A stretch of 19,217 nt of DNA from a bacterium (lineage in GTDB: Bacteria; ARS69): assembly GCA_025774865.1 (NCBI GenBank), contig JALGZO010000661.1, forward strand, positions 1 to 19,217, read 5' to 3'. The notes under the pieces were generated by a model that did not search any database, was not told the origin of the DNA, and saw only the letters and a list, made by a program, of their open reading frames with translations. Both the position numbers and the translations under genes were made by a program. Positions 5,547-10,710 of the stretch are shown here, in pieces; position 1 is the stretch's first letter, and each line of letters begins with the position of its first letter.

Positions 5547-5720
5547 CGTGAGTTCCGTTTCCCCTGCCCTCGGAATCTAGTTTCTCGGGGGACTCCGGAC
5601 GAGGGGGTCGCCCGAATTTCGGTTGCGGCAACGCACATCCCGGCCAAACCAATGAGGCTCATCTCCTGGACGAGATCGACCGAAGTCTCCGACAGAAGCC
5701 TTCCCCGTAAATCTCTGTCC

Positions 5721-5726
5721 GAGGAG
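5721..5726 (+). promoter_or_regulatory. Ribosome binding site choosing the TTG start of the beta-helix gene
   Basis: GAGGAG sits 6 nt before TTG 5733. The in-frame ATG codons at 5652 and 5778 have no comparable site, so this decides the preferred start. Confidence 0.5.
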
Positions 5727-5732
5727 CCACGC

Positions 5733-7211
5733 TTGCCCGTCGTGTCGTCCGCTGTGGACCCGATCCGGATCCGTGCCATGTCGGGGTGCGGGACCCTGCA
5801 CTCACCTTGGACCGGCTGGGAGGACCAGATCGAGGACGGGCCTCCGAGTCACACCTACCAGTTCGTGCCCGGGTTCTACGCCGCCTCCCATCCCGTGCGT
5901 CTCGGATCCGGCACCGTGCTCGAGCCACGACCGGGGCAGCCGGGTCGCGCGTGGTTCCTTCCGCGGCGCGAGAGCGGCGATCCGTTCGAAGCGTTGTTCG
6001 TCGTCGACGGCGCTCACGGTATCGCCCTGCGGGGCCTCTGCTTCAACGGCGGAGGGGATGGCGCCCGGCACGGGCTGCTCGTCCGCTGCGCCACCGGGCT
6101 CCAGATCGAGGGGTGCCGTTTCGGCGACTTCGGCGCGCAGGACGGATCCGCCATCCGGATCGAAGGCGAAGGTGAGCACCGCCACGTTCGCGAGGTCGTG
6201 ATCCAGGCGAGCCGCTTCATCAACGATCGATGCGGAGTTCGTCTCGGCCCCTGGGCGTCCGATCTCCTGATCGCCGATAACCGATTCGAAGAGGTGTGGG
6301 GCCCCGCGTTGCTCGTCGACCCGCGCGACCACCGGTCGGACTACGGCCTGATCTTCGTCAAGAATCACCTTCGGGCGGCGAGGCCGGGGCGGGAAGGGCC
6401 GTTTATCCGGATCCTCGCGGGGGCGGAGGGAATCCGGGTCGCCGAGAACACGATCGACGGGGCGGCGGCGAGCCCCGCCCTCGGGCCGAGCGCGGCGCGC
6501 GAGGTCAGCCCCGGCATCGAAGTCCGGGGAGAAGGCCGACAGGGCGTTCGGCGGCTCGAGATCATCTTGAACCAGATTCGCGGAACGACCGGTCCCGGCC
6601 TCGCCGCGTTGCGGTGCGATGCGGGCCTCCTCGCGGCGGGGAACCACCTCACCGCGTGCGGCAGCGCGCAGCTCGGAGGCGTCGATCTCGTCTCGTGCCA
6701 CGGGGCGCTCGTCGAGGACAACGAGATCCGCGAGCAACCGGGCCCGGGAATCCGTCTGCAAGATTGCTCGAGCTCCCGTCTGAACGGCAACGAAATCTGC
6801 GGCGGCTCCGACTCTCCCGTCCGTGGCGGGACGGTCGGGCTGCTCGTGGGCGGCTCGACGACGCGCCGAGTCCGTGTCACGGACAACCGAATCTCGGGGG
6901 TACGCGAGGAGGGAGTGCGGGTCAGCTCGTCGCTCGGGCTCCGACTCGTCGGGAACGAAGTCCAGGATTGCGGTCACGGAATCCGGATCGCGGCGGCGAC
7001 GAATCTTCTTCTCGTCGGCAACGATTGCCGCGACAATGGGCGCGGCGGCATCCAGGTCGACCCCCCGGTCCACCGGGGCCTGGTCGCCCTCAACTACGCG
7101 ATTCTGAACGGTGTGATGGACTTGGAGGTGCGGGGCCACCGGATTCGCTGCCGCGACAACAAGGTGGACAAGCAGGGCTCTCAGCCGGAACCGGCGATCT
7201 CGGAGGGCTGA
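5733..7211 (+). CDS. Right-handed parallel beta-helix repeat protein
   Basis: The protein is about 492 residues. From about residue 90 to the end it is built of coils of 20-25 residues with the rhythm of PbH1 repeats: stretches such as GIALRGLCFNGG, GLQIEGCRF, LLIADNRFEE, IRVAENTIDG, ALVEDNEIRE, SRLNGNEICG, VRVTDNRISGV, LRLVGNEVQD and LLLVGNDCRDN. The recurring Asn/Gly pair at each turn is typical of NosD/pectate-lyase-like solenoids. I see no catalytic signature and cannot name a substrate. No signal peptide or lipobox is visible from any candidate start, which is unusual for this fold. TTG 5733 is preferred for its GAGGAG; alternatives are ATG 5778 (shorter by 15 residues) and ATG 5652 (longer by 27). 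It diverges from glgP and precedes rho. Confidence 0.8.
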   Translation: MPVVSSAVDPIRIRAMSGCGTLHSPWTGWEDQIEDGPPSHTYQFVPGFYAASHPVRLGSGTVLEPRPGQPGRAWFLPRRESGDPFEALFVVDGAHGIALRGLCFNGGGDGARHGLLVRCATGLQIEGCRFGDFGAQDGSAIRIEGEGEHRHVREVVIQASRFINDRCGVRLGPWASDLLIADNRFEEVWGPALLVDPRDHRSDYGLIFVKNHLRAARPGREGPFIRILAGAEGIRVAENTIDGAAASPALGPSAAREVSPGIEVRGEGRQGVRRLEIILNQIRGTTGPGLAALRCDAGLLAAGNHLTACGSAQLGGVDLVSCHGALVEDNEIREQPGPGIRLQDCSSSRLNGNEICGGSDSPVRGGTVGLLVGGSTTRRVRVTDNRISGVREEGVRVSSSLGLRLVGNEVQDCGHGIRIAAATNLLLVGNDCRDNGRGGIQVDPPVHRGLVALNYAILNGVMDLEVRGHRIRCRDNKVDKQGSQPEPAISEG

Positions 7212-7553
7212 CGGAGGGGCTCGCGCCCGAATCAGGACTTGATCCGGGGCTGAAGTTGAGGTAGACAGGGGGTCCGAAATCGGGCTGAAATGTCCCGCCG
7301 AAAGGTTGTATCCTAGAGGGGCGAGATTTCGGGCTCTCGAGGCAACGCCTCTTCCGCCGATGGATGCCCGCGCGACGCGTCCGGACATCCCGCGCTTCCC
7401 CGGACCGCAGCAAGACCGGCACTGGACCTTCGCGACGTAGACGAAGCGTCCGTCGAGAGCGAGTTCGACCATTCCAGTTTCGCTGAAGTCGGGTAACATC
7501 CCGAAGACCCGGCATCCTCACGTGTTCGGCGCCTTGCGCCGCCAGAGAGAATC
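7212..7553. other. 342-bp spacer between the beta-helix gene and rho
   Basis: I find no convincing gene here. The plus-strand frames are short and stop-interrupted. A minus-strand frame opening at ATG 7499 has codon use that could pass for coding over about 30 residues, but it then runs into the antisense of the beta-helix gene. No cold-shock domain of Rho is recognisable in any plus frame. The spacer holds the rho leader, including a stem-loop at 7527-7541, and presumably the rho promoter, which I could not place. Confidence 0.5.
7527..7541 (+). other. Stem-loop in the rho leader
   Basis: CGGCGC-CTT-GCGCCG is a perfect 6-bp stem with a 3-nt loop, ending 12 nt before the rho start and abutting its AGAGAG ribosome site. 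It could tune rho translation. There is no U-tract, so it is not an obvious terminator. Confidence 0.35.
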
Positions 7554-8738
7554 TTGATCACACATCGATCGAACTTTCGGTCCCGTCGCCCGCGCCCGCG
7601 GAAGCGGGGTCCCGGTGATGGCGCCAGTGGTCCACCACGAAAGAAACCTCCGAACGGCTCGGGCAACTCGCGCAGCGGGCGAAGGAGCCGGCCCGGTCGC
7701 GGGGGTCCACGCCGCGTCGACAACGGTTACCAGGAATCCCAAGAGGGACGCGGCGGGAACAGCCAGGGCAATAGCCCCCATCGAGAGAATCGGCGCCGCT
7801 CAGGCGGCGGACGCTCGGGAGGGCGAGGCGGCCAGGGGCGCCGGCCGCGCATCCCCGTCGGAGACATCCCGGCGCTGAAGATCGTTCAACAGGGGGTCAG
7901 CATCGATCCCTTCGAGCGATTGAAGCTCGAGACGACGTCGGACGAAGTGACCTGTCGGGTGCTGGATCTCGTCACCCCGATCGGCCGCGGGCAGCGTTGT
8001 CTGATCGTGGCGCCGCCGATGGCCGGCAAGACCACGCTCCTCATCAACATCGCGAATGCCGTCGCGGCGAATCACCCCGACGTCCGCTCCTACGTGCTCC
8101 TCGTCGACGAGCGGCCCGAGGAAGTCACCCACTTCCGGCGCAGCACCGCGGCCGAGATTCACGCCGCGTCGAGCGACATGTCGGCCGCGCAGCACATCAG
8201 CGTCGCCGAAGCTTGCGTGAACGAGGCGCTCGAGCACGTGGTCGCCGGAGAGGACGTCCTTCTCCTTCTGGACTCGATCACTCGTCTCGCCCGCTCGTAC
8301 AACACGCAGGGGGATTCGGGCCGCACCCTTTCGGGTGGTCTCGACGCGAACACGATGCTCATCCCGCGTCAGGTGTTCGGAGCGGCGCGCAAGATCGAGG
8401 ACGGAGGAAGCCTCACGATCGTCGGCACCGCGTTGATCGACACGGGCTCCCGCATGGACGAGGTCATCTTCCAAGAGTTCAAAGGAACGGGGAACATGGA
8501 GCTGTTCCTGTCCCGCGAGCTGTTCACGAAGCGGATCTTCCCGTGCGTCGACATCGAGAAGTCGGGAACCCGTAAGGAAGAGAAGCTGGCGACACCCGAA
8601 GCTCTGGCGCGCATCCACCTTCTCCGCCGACACATGACGGCCATGAAGCCGCACGAGGCCATGACCTTCATGCTCGAGCTTCTGGCCCGCTACAAGACGA
8701 ACGCCGATCTACTCGCGAGCCTCGTCGCCAAGACCTGA
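7554..8738 (+). CDS. rho: Transcription termination factor Rho with atypical N-terminus
   Basis: The 394-residue product has the RecA-like hexameric RNA helicase/ATPase core of Rho from about residue 118 to the end: FERLKLETT (120-128), IGRGQRCLIVAPPMAGKTT with the P-loop at 154-161, the catalytic-Glu region DERPEEVTHFRRS, Walker B VLLLLDSITRLAR (235-247), the Q-loop/R-loop SGGLDANT then GAARKIEDGGSLTI, and GSRMDEVIFQEFKGTGNMEL. Normal Rho (about 420 residues or more) has a Rho_N helix bundle and a cold-shock RNA-binding domain before this. Here residues 1-99 are Arg/Gly/Ser/Pro-rich and look disordered and RNA-binding (RGRGGP, GGRSGGRGG runs). The start is TTG 7554 with AGAGAG 4 nt upstream; the previous in-frame stop is at 7494, so nothing longer is possible in this frame. 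The P-loop has Met where most Rho proteins have Lys. It could be the only Rho or a paralogue. Confidence 0.93.
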   Translation: MITHRSNFRSRRPRPRKRGPGDGASGPPRKKPPNGSGNSRSGRRSRPGRGGPRRVDNGYQESQEGRGGNSQGNSPHRENRRRSGGGRSGGRGGQGRRPRIPVGDIPALKIVQQGVSIDPFERLKLETTSDEVTCRVLDLVTPIGRGQRCLIVAPPMAGKTTLLINIANAVAANHPDVRSYVLLVDERPEEVTHFRRSTAAEIHAASSDMSAAQHISVAEACVNEALEHVVAGEDVLLLLDSITRLARSYNTQGDSGRTLSGGLDANTMLIPRQVFGAARKIEDGGSLTIVGTALIDTGSRMDEVIFQEFKGTGNMELFLSRELFTKRIFPCVDIEKSGTRKEEKLATPEALARIHLLRRHMTAMKPHEAMTFMLELLARYKTNADLLASLVAKT

Positions 8739-8772: not shown

Positions 8773-10710
8773 TCAGCGAATTCGCAGGAGCTTTCGCGTC
8801 TCGACGACTGACCCCGAGACGAATCGTGCGAAGTAGATACCCGGCGCGAGCGCACTTCCGGCCGCATCGCGGCCGTCCCATTCACGCGCGTGAACCCCGG
8901 CCGCGAGCGATCCCTGAACGAGCGTTCGCACCTGGCGCCCACCGACGTCGTAGATCCGCAGATCCACCCGACCGGCCGCATGCAGCCCGAAACGGATCTC
9001 GGTGCTGGGCCGGAACGGATTCGGGGCCACGCCCAGGAGGCCGGTGTGGGACGTCCCGAAGCGGCTGGACCCGACGCCGGTCGGGTCGGTGACGACCGTC
9101 GCCGCGAGATCGAACGTGAGATCGTCGAGGTCGATGGCGCCGTCGAGATCTTGCTGGTCTCGCGTGCTCAGGGTCAACGTGCCGAGGTAGACGCCTTCCG
9201 CCGCCCCGGCCGCGTCGAAGCTCACGGCCGTACTCTCCGGCGCCACTCCGACGAGGAAGCCCGAGAACCCTCCCGGCACGAAGAAACGTGGGTCCCCCGT
9301 CAGGGCCGCGTCCCACACGTCGAGCGACGCCTGGAACGCGTCGGCGGGGAAATTGTGGACGACGGCGTGGGCGTGAACGGTGTCGTCGACCGCGACCGTC
9401 CCGAGGTCGAGCAGGGCCTCAGTCAGAATCACGTCGGAGCTCGTGCTCGGTACGGCGTGCGCCAGAACGGTCGCGGTCAGCGGCACGAGGTGCGCCGGCC
9501 GATCGGGGTCATCGGTGGTGATCGTGAGATCCCCCGCGTGGAGCCCGGGAGTCACGGCAGGGTGGTCGACCGGGTGGAGCGCCGCGGGGGCGCCGGCCTC
9601 GGCCTGGAACGAGCCGGGTGGGGCCGCGAAGCCGGCGGGCGCGGTGAACGAGTAGTCGAGCTCGTCGGCCGGGATCGGGGCCGCATTCTCGACCGAGAGA
9701 TCGGCCGAGGCCGTGCCGCCGACGATGGCGCTGCCGAGATCGAGGGCGAGGTCGGTGTCGAGCACCGGGTGGACCTGGAAATCCGCGTACACCGGAAGGT
9801 GGTCCGACGCGTCGTGCAGATTGCTCGCCATGATCGAATCGATCACGACGTAGGGTGGGACGTTGATCGCGTCATTGAAGTGTTTCCCGTCCTGTCCGAA
9901 CGCTGTGTAGGACGCTTCGACGATGTCGATGCCCTCCCCATCCTGCCCGGCCGGACCCACGAGCATCATGTCGAAACGATCGTCCAGACCGCCGTTCGCG
10001 CCGCCCCCGAACTGCTCGACCCGGGGAGATTGCGTGTGCACGTCCGCGAAATCGGGATTGTTGTGCCAGTTGCCCTCGCGATCGATCGGATCCTGCACCA
10101 CGCCGGCCAACCCGTTCGCGGAGCTCGTCATGTAGAGGTAAGCCGGCTCGGTCGCCCGGTAGATGTTGAAGTCGCCGGCCACGACGTAGTTCTGCCCGAC
10201 GGGGAACGTCTCCAACCGGGCTCGCATCGCCGTGACCTCCGCAAGCCGCTTCTGCTCGTTGTCCGTGCCCTGGCTCGCCTTCAGGTGCGTGGTGTAGACG
10301 CGAACGTTCGCCTCGGACGACGTGTGGGAAGCGGGCCGGAACGTCCACTCGTCGATGTCCCGAAGCGCGGTCGAGATGACGAAGTGCGAGAGGTACGTGA
10401 CCGTGGCGGTTCGGTAGTAGAACCCGTTGTCGGTGTCGGTGCCGTTTACGAAGGCGCCCGCCGCCCACTCGCCCGGATCGACCTGGTCGAGGACGAGATT
10501 CCGGAACCGGTCGACCGCCGCCTGCGACAGGATTTCCTGGACCACGAGCACGTCAGGCTGTGTCGCCGCGAGGATCTCTCGAAACTCCGCCTCCCGGCCT
10601 GAATTGTAGTTCAGAATGTTGTAGGTCATGAGGCGCAGCGCCGCCGCGTCGATCGGGGCGAGCGCGACGACGATCAGACTGGCGAGACTGGCGGAAACGT
10701 GGACACGCAC
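8773..10710 (-). CDS. Secreted endonuclease/exonuclease/phosphatase-family protein with FlgD/Ig-like C-terminal tail
   Basis: The product is 645 residues. An N-terminal signal peptide (SLASLIVVALAPIDAAA) leads into an EEP-fold hydrolase domain (about 26-312) with all core residues visible: Asn31 in MTYNILNY, Glu59 in VVQEI, His142 in YTTHLKAS, Asp180/Asn182 in VAGDFNIY, DDRFDMM (243-249) and Asp303-His304 in ASDHLPVY. It probably cleaves nucleic acid or another phosphodiester outside the cytoplasm. About residues 312-555 are beta-rich, resembling Ig/ASH-type modules (DLDLGSAIVGG; TLSTRDQQD). The last 80-90 residues (NPFRPSTEIRF, LRIYDVGGRQVRTL, APGIYFARF, ETRKLLRIR) are a FlgD/Ig-like tail of the type seen on exported proteins of Eisenbacteria-like and other FCB bacteria. 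GTG 10710 is chosen because AGGAG lies 7 nt upstream. It sits 57 nt after HMG-CoA lyase on the same strand and may be read through from it. Confidence 0.9.
   Translation of the reverse strand: MRVHVSASLASLIVVALAPIDAAALRLMTYNILNYNSGREAEFREILAATQPDVLVVQEILSQAAVDRFRNLVLDQVDPGEWAAGAFVNGTDTDNGFYYRTATVTYLSHFVISTALRDIDEWTFRPASHTSSEANVRVYTTHLKASQGTDNEQKRLAEVTAMRARLETFPVGQNYVVAGDFNIYRATEPAYLYMTSSANGLAGVVQDPIDREGNWHNNPDFADVHTQSPRVEQFGGGANGGLDDRFDMMLVGPAGQDGEGIDIVEASYTAFGQDGKHFNDAINVPPYVVIDSIMASNLHDASDHLPVYADFQVHPVLDTDLALDLGSAIVGGTASADLSVENAAPIPADELDYSFTAPAGFAAPPGSFQAEAGAPAALHPVDHPAVTPGLHAGDLTITTDDPDRPAHLVPLTATVLAHAVPSTSSDVILTEALLDLGTVAVDDTVHAHAVVHNFPADAFQASLDVWDAALTGDPRFFVPGGFSGFLVGVAPESTAVSFDAAGAAEGVYLGTLTLSTRDQQDLDGAIDLDDLTFDLAATVVTDPTGVGSSRFGTSHTGLLGVAPNPFRPSTEIRFGLHAAGRVDLRIYDVGGRQVRTLVQGSLAAGVHAREWDGRDAAGSALAPGIYFARFVSGSVVETRKLLRIR

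Follow-up and report, generated by a model that had tools for sequence, protein, structure and literature searches.

The window analysed here, a 19,217-nt stretch of DNA (contig JALGZO010000661.1 of assembly GCA_025774865.1), carries a gene for a protein with the motor of the transcription terminator Rho but without its cold-shock domain (CSD), located between genes for a beta-helix protein and a phosphatase-like protein (Table 1). Rho is a ring-shaped motor that ends RNA synthesis and is conventionally described in two parts, a CSD that selects the RNA and a motor that translocates it. Among the three orthologues of the window gene, two also start with TTG and the third with ATG.

Table 1 Features of the window and of the related phage-plasmid gene (window positions unless an accession is given)
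Feature	Position	Strand	Remarks
Right-handed beta-helix (NosD-like) protein, upstream neighbour	5652..7211	+	Also adjoins the gene in G002 and G004
AGAGAG, weak Shine-Dalgarno-like stretch 5' of TTG	7544..7549	+	Seen in sequence; putative function
CSD-less Rho paralogue	7554..8738	+	394 aa; TTG start at 7554, stop ends at 8738
Residues 1-99, Arg/Gly/Ser/Pro-rich tail with RGG/GRG runs	7554..7850	+	
Residues 100-116, linker IPALKIVQQGVS	7851..7901	+	Conserved across orthologues
Residues 117-392, Rho motor core	7902..8729	+	RecA-like ATPase, PF00006
P-loop APPMAGKT	8010..8033	+	K159, T160 = E. coli K184, T185; K181 replaced by M
F194, family signature	8133..8135	+	= E. coli M219
S206-S207, family signature	8169..8174	+	Canonical T-F = E. 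coli T231-F232
D240, Walker B aspartate	8271..8273	+	= E. coli D265; retained
R340, arginine finger	8571..8573	+	= E. coli R366; retained
Endonuclease/exonuclease/phosphatase-family protein with FlgD_ig, downstream neighbour	8773..10710	-	Kept in 3/3 orthologous loci
Spartinivicinus ruber pB CSD-less Rho	NZ_CP048880.1:54176-55135 (L112:3881-4840; L103:2890-3849)	Opposite to holin/terminase	319 aa

A Rho motor behind a disordered tail

The first-pass annotation had read a complete Rho ATPase core from about residue 118 onwards, and NF006886, Pfam and AlphaFold2 bore this out. The protein scores 382 bits against NF006886 (cut-off 315) and about 369 bits against the rho equivalog TIGR00767, whose cut-off of 509 bits is not reached; Pfam reports only ATP-synt_ab, at residues 134-337. 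The solved structures nearest to the core are Rho proteins of several species. In its AlphaFold2 model, mean pLDDT is about 90 or higher across most of residues 121-390 and drops at 251-270; fitted onto E. coli Rho, the core model gives an rmsd of about 1.7 Å over some 280 alignment columns. An alignment to solved Rho proteins supplied the E. coli numbering of the P-loop residues; K310 and R300 of the window protein correspond to E. coli K336 and K326. The protein thus qualifies as a Rho superfamily member by its Rho-type RecA/F1-like core, P-loop, catalytic Glu, Walker B Asp and arginine finger. Its core is about 54% identical to that of E. coli-type canonical Rho (NF006886, TIGR00767), with which it shares all ATPase, arginine-valve and arginine-finger residues.

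The difference lies in front of the core, where canonical Rho has Rho_N and the CSD and the window protein has an Arg/Gly tail. Pfam found neither the CSD/OB RNA-binding domain that forms the primary site (PF07497) nor the Rho_N helix bundle (PF07498) in the window protein, whose residues 1-118 match nothing. A CSD profile made from canonical Rhos was searched against the window and three orthologous loci in six frames and found no CSD; the faint matches near the gene cover only the last ~14 profile positions, which are the linker. Since this profile was partly trained on canonical Rhos of the window's family (f1), its strong scores there arise by construction; as an independent control, PF07497 and PF07498 were both positive on the canonical Rho that this genome encodes. 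The earlier claims that residues 1-99 hold neither domain, and that none is hidden in another frame, therefore stand.

That canonical Rho, a 444-aa protein with Rho_N, CSD and core on contig C584, turned up in the search for a second full-length rho that the first-pass annotation had proposed. It makes the window gene a paralogue and rules it out as the cell's only Rho: the anatomy read at first pass (motor, disordered Arg/Gly-rich N-terminus, CSD absent) holds, and the idea of the cell's Rho with a new N-terminus does not.

The tail was described at first pass as disordered and rich in Arg, Gly, Ser and Pro with RGG-like runs, in agreement with our analysis. Virtually the whole of residues 1-112 has an AlphaFold2 pLDDT below 50; residues 1-99 show no secondary structure in the model and are predicted to be disordered. 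Arg and Gly make up 48% of the tail vs 20% (SD 9) in the other window genes, a share attained by 1.2% of open six-frame stretches, some of which overlap the tail itself. The 116 predicted disordered residues preceding the core contain eight RGG/GRG/GGR matches (overlaps counted), so that clustered repeats and predicted disorder, the marks of an RGG-type tail, occur together. Neither the window gene nor the G003 orthologue has an in-frame start between the initiation codon and the core, and the tail must therefore be translated to obtain an intact core. Comparison of orthologues shows two motifs kept in the tail: RSRRPRxRK, close to its beginning, and RVD[NS]GY, shared by three of the four orthologues. 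The latter, at about 7713-7730 in the window and also present in the G002 and G004 orthologues, stands out in an otherwise variable tail and is a possible short binding motif.

Searches at the level of order, class and phylum all return the same five genomes, one family with five genera. Four of them carry the CSD-less gene, at 71-77% identity; the fifth genome is 67% complete. Wherever contigs permit a comparison, the genes follow the same order: glgP, pckA, beta-helix, rho paralogue, endonuclease/phosphatase protein. Among the orthologues, core dN is about 0.1 vs a dS of 0.9-1.8, and by these substitution rates the core is under strong purifying selection. The tail evolves much faster (dN 0.45-0.87) and nonetheless retains its composition.

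A family of Rhos without a cold-shock domain

Of 290 genomes surveyed, in most cases one or two from each family, 267 contained Rho cores; those that had an additional core, or a frame of unusual shortness, were examined further. CSD scores fall nearly into two classes. The match is clear in almost all Rhos (E 1e-10 or better), and absent or confined to the linker in f1 (four genomes), G168, G186, G073, G169, G213, G033 and G022; in G060, a relative of G022, the CSD-less gene is cut by the contig start. L098 of G067, with a partial CSD match (E 4e-4), was excluded from both groups, and a second copy in G029 was left out of the CSD-less count. Outside f1, CSD-less Rhos thus occur in at least eight genomes and at least seven families among the matches listed. 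None of these lineages belongs to the phylum of the window, and G022 falls in a separate phylum (two genomes examined), which brings the family to at least three phyla. The genomes outside f1 also have a canonical CSD-bearing Rho, except G186, where it is cut by the contig end, and G060, where none was found at the cut-off. A conserved operon partner was sought, and none is common to the different lineages. Other lineages contain short second Rhos that have a CSD and lack Rho_N (L024, L087, L092, L097), possibly of the paralog_Rho2 type. In G056, a one-contig genome of 6.8 Mb, the Rho core match is divided between two overlapping frames (C1:133636-134455), as in a broken or frameshifted rho.

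In trees built from the core only, the 12 CSD-less rows form one side of a branch, with a support of 99/88 among 78 rows, and none of 500 label shuffles came out as low. Support was 97/94 in a tree of 31 rows with fewer CSD-less members and 94/84 after the addition of viral contigs. Lineage-specific duplication, modelled by holding the CSD-less and canonical Rhos of f1 together, was rejected (p-AU 1e-39), as were the equivalent duplications in G022 (p-AU 4e-5) and G073 (p-AU 0.005). The trees call for caution owing to long branches, yet other long-branch Rho paralogues place elsewhere. Residues of the core separate the groups as well: F194 and R272 are found in all 12 CSD-less Rhos, where all 42 canonical Rhos have Met and Lys, respectively; T258 and S320 each occur in 12/12; and S206 and S207 occur in 10 and 11 of the 12, vs T-F in 42/42 canonical Rhos. 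The window protein lacks the CSD, places its core inside the clan and carries F194, S206-S207, T258, R272 and S320. On this evidence, the window gene very probably belongs to an old family of paralogues in which the C-terminal motor was kept whole, whereas CSD and Rho_N at the N-terminus were either lost or never present.

The motor itself is strongly conserved. Without exception, the 12 CSD-less Rhos have the P-loop Lys and Thr, the catalytic Glu, the Walker B Asp and the equivalents of E. coli R269, K336, R353 and R366; they are therefore likely to be active ATPases. Two positions vary: that of E. coli K181 (Met in f1, Lys in six and Gly in two, vs Arg or Lys in canonical Rhos) and the R-loop position of E. 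coli K326, which is non-basic in 3/12 and basic in the window protein. Changes of E. coli M219 presumably confer resistance to bicyclomycin, a link for which we found no support in the open-access literature; with Phe at this position in 12/12 members, CSD-less Rhos may be insensitive to the drug.

Tails differ between lineages. In f1, G168, G186 and G073 they are Arg/Gly-rich with net charges of +18 to +28 (canonical N-termini of f1: -3 to +1), in G033, G169 and G213 they are short and basic (+6 to +8), and in G022 only about 17 residues with a net charge of zero remain. The Arg/Gly-rich tail of the first-pass annotation thus recurs in f1, G168, G186 and G073, and fails as a definition of the family (G033, G169, G213, G022), whose defining trait is the missing CSD and not the RGG tail. 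With the tail almost absent in G022 and short in three further genomes, RGG loading cannot be the general mechanism.

Mobile members and known short Rhos

The first match of the motor core in a plasmid collection was plasmid pB (NZ_CP048880.1) of Spartinivicinus ruber, a cultured gammaproteobacterial strain for which the pB sequence is complete. Since pB encodes capsid, tail and terminase as well as ParA/ParB and replication genes, it is a phage-plasmid. Its Rho (WP_163836858.1), annotated by NCBI simply as Rho, adjoins holin and terminase genes, is identical to the IMG/VR protein L103 and falls inside the CSD-less group together with G169 and G213. Phage-borne spread in general was considered and set aside; the matches in phage collections mostly look like bacterial rho within host DNA that was deposited as phage. 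A 291-aa core-only Rho without CSD lies well within a 132-kb viral contig (L107:2947-3822; IMGVR_UViG_3300007609_000005). It resembles the CSD-less Rhos in its layout but has the canonical TF at 206-207 and groups with canonical Rhos (99/95), which indicates an independent loss of the N-terminal domains. Its neighbours, named by eye, are HD-hydrolase-like and 2'-5' ligase-like genes.

NCBIfam NF041509 (paralog_Rho2, 'Rho, short form') likewise describes a short second Rho. Its 360 positions leave space for an N-terminal domain ahead of the core, whereas CSD-less proteins match only the last ~280; membership was rejected, with 330 bits for the window protein and 315-390 for five other CSD-less Rhos against a cut-off of 628. 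The short Rhos near this size (L024 and the three others named above) carry a CSD and lie outside the CSD-less group. Long, disordered and charged N-terminal regions are also found in the Rhos of Mycobacterium, Micrococcus and Bacteroides thetaiotaomicron (PMC8828861, PMC13269538). There, the insert increases RNA affinity (Micrococcus and Mycobacterium; PMC8828861) or aids condensation (B. thetaiotaomicron; PMC13269538). Those proteins are the cell's canonical Rho and carry the insert in addition to a CSD; the window protein is a paralogue without a CSD. The CSD-less family is apparently undescribed: we found no description of such paralogues in the open-access literature. A 2013 phyletic survey (D'Heygere, Rabhi and Boudvillain) may mention truncated Rhos.

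A proposed mode of action without the primary site

The best reading of these data is an ancient Rho paralogue whose motor would engage RNA without the primary site, or would work together with canonical Rho. In the mechanism we propose for the window protein, the ring would still form, hydrolyse ATP and pull RNA through its central pore, the secondary site. Lacking the CSD, it should not recognise C-rich rut sites, nor would it have the N-terminal surface that contacts RNA polymerase in E. coli Rho. In f1, the Arg/Gly tail would then supply RNA affinity; this cationic tail may bind RNA in a non-specific, multivalent manner, load it into the ring and perhaps also condense with it. As a loader in f1 the tail is the obvious candidate, given the precedents of RNA-binding disordered inserts in actinobacterial Rho and of condensation by Bacteroides Rho. 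Its probable job would be to remove or terminate certain RNAs or RNA-DNA hybrids independently of rut, alongside canonical Rho. In E. coli, NusG largely makes up for weak primary-site binding at most terminators (PMC4150792), and a motor-only Rho is therefore a plausible RNA translocase that loads RNA without specificity. We assign this whole mechanism, a tail-loaded, rut-independent motor acting alongside canonical Rho, a probability of about 0.42. For the family across several phyla and the phage-plasmid, we tentatively favour, with slightly less confidence, a rut-independent motor or modulator of canonical Rho, with RGG-tail loading in some lineages. The first-pass interpretation is thereby partly supported.

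One objection would be that the gene is an artefact or a decaying copy produced by frameshift, mis-assembly or pseudogenization, and the window genome, probably a metagenome assembly, is indeed fragmented (785 contigs, 92.7% complete, 8.3% contamination). Three independent genomes with the same layout, open frames, synteny and a core dN/dS near 0.1 remove the concern over contamination and fragmentation and speak against both frameshift and decay. The profile search shows no CSD in any frame, no frameshift restores one, and none of the three orthologous loci carries one, so that none of the three outcomes that could have overturned the first-pass annotation materialized. With related CSD-less Rhos in other phyla and on a complete plasmid of a cultured strain, we consider an artefact highly improbable.

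The main rival reading is that the protein acts through canonical Rho, its CSD-less subunits joining mixed hexamers or competing, and thereby tunes or poisons the canonical enzyme; on this reading, the member on the phage-plasmid would serve anti-termination, directed against host Rho. This is consistent with the canonical Rho in nearly all CSD-less genomes, with the similarity of the two cores and their shared arginine finger and K336, and with the nearly tailless G022 core, which would need a partner to find RNA; the S. ruber copy beside holins makes it attractive. We nevertheless regard it as rather unlikely, as the core surfaces differ consistently between the groups at 27 positions and the fully conserved ATPase residues suggest catalysis of its own. 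The protein could instead be a Rho-derived ATPase that remodels RNA or R-loops and has lost transcription termination. An intact motor (12/12) without the N-terminal domain, to which both rut binding and RNA polymerase contacts map in E. coli Rho (PMC8828861), would fit such a role; given that E. coli Rho motors with weak primary sites do terminate with NusG (PMC4150792), we judge it unlikely.

The CSD-less family is a natural experiment on the purpose of the primary site, and its member on a phage-plasmid of a cultured gammaproteobacterium makes bench work possible. A conserved motor-only family would show that the second half of Rho has a natural job of its own.
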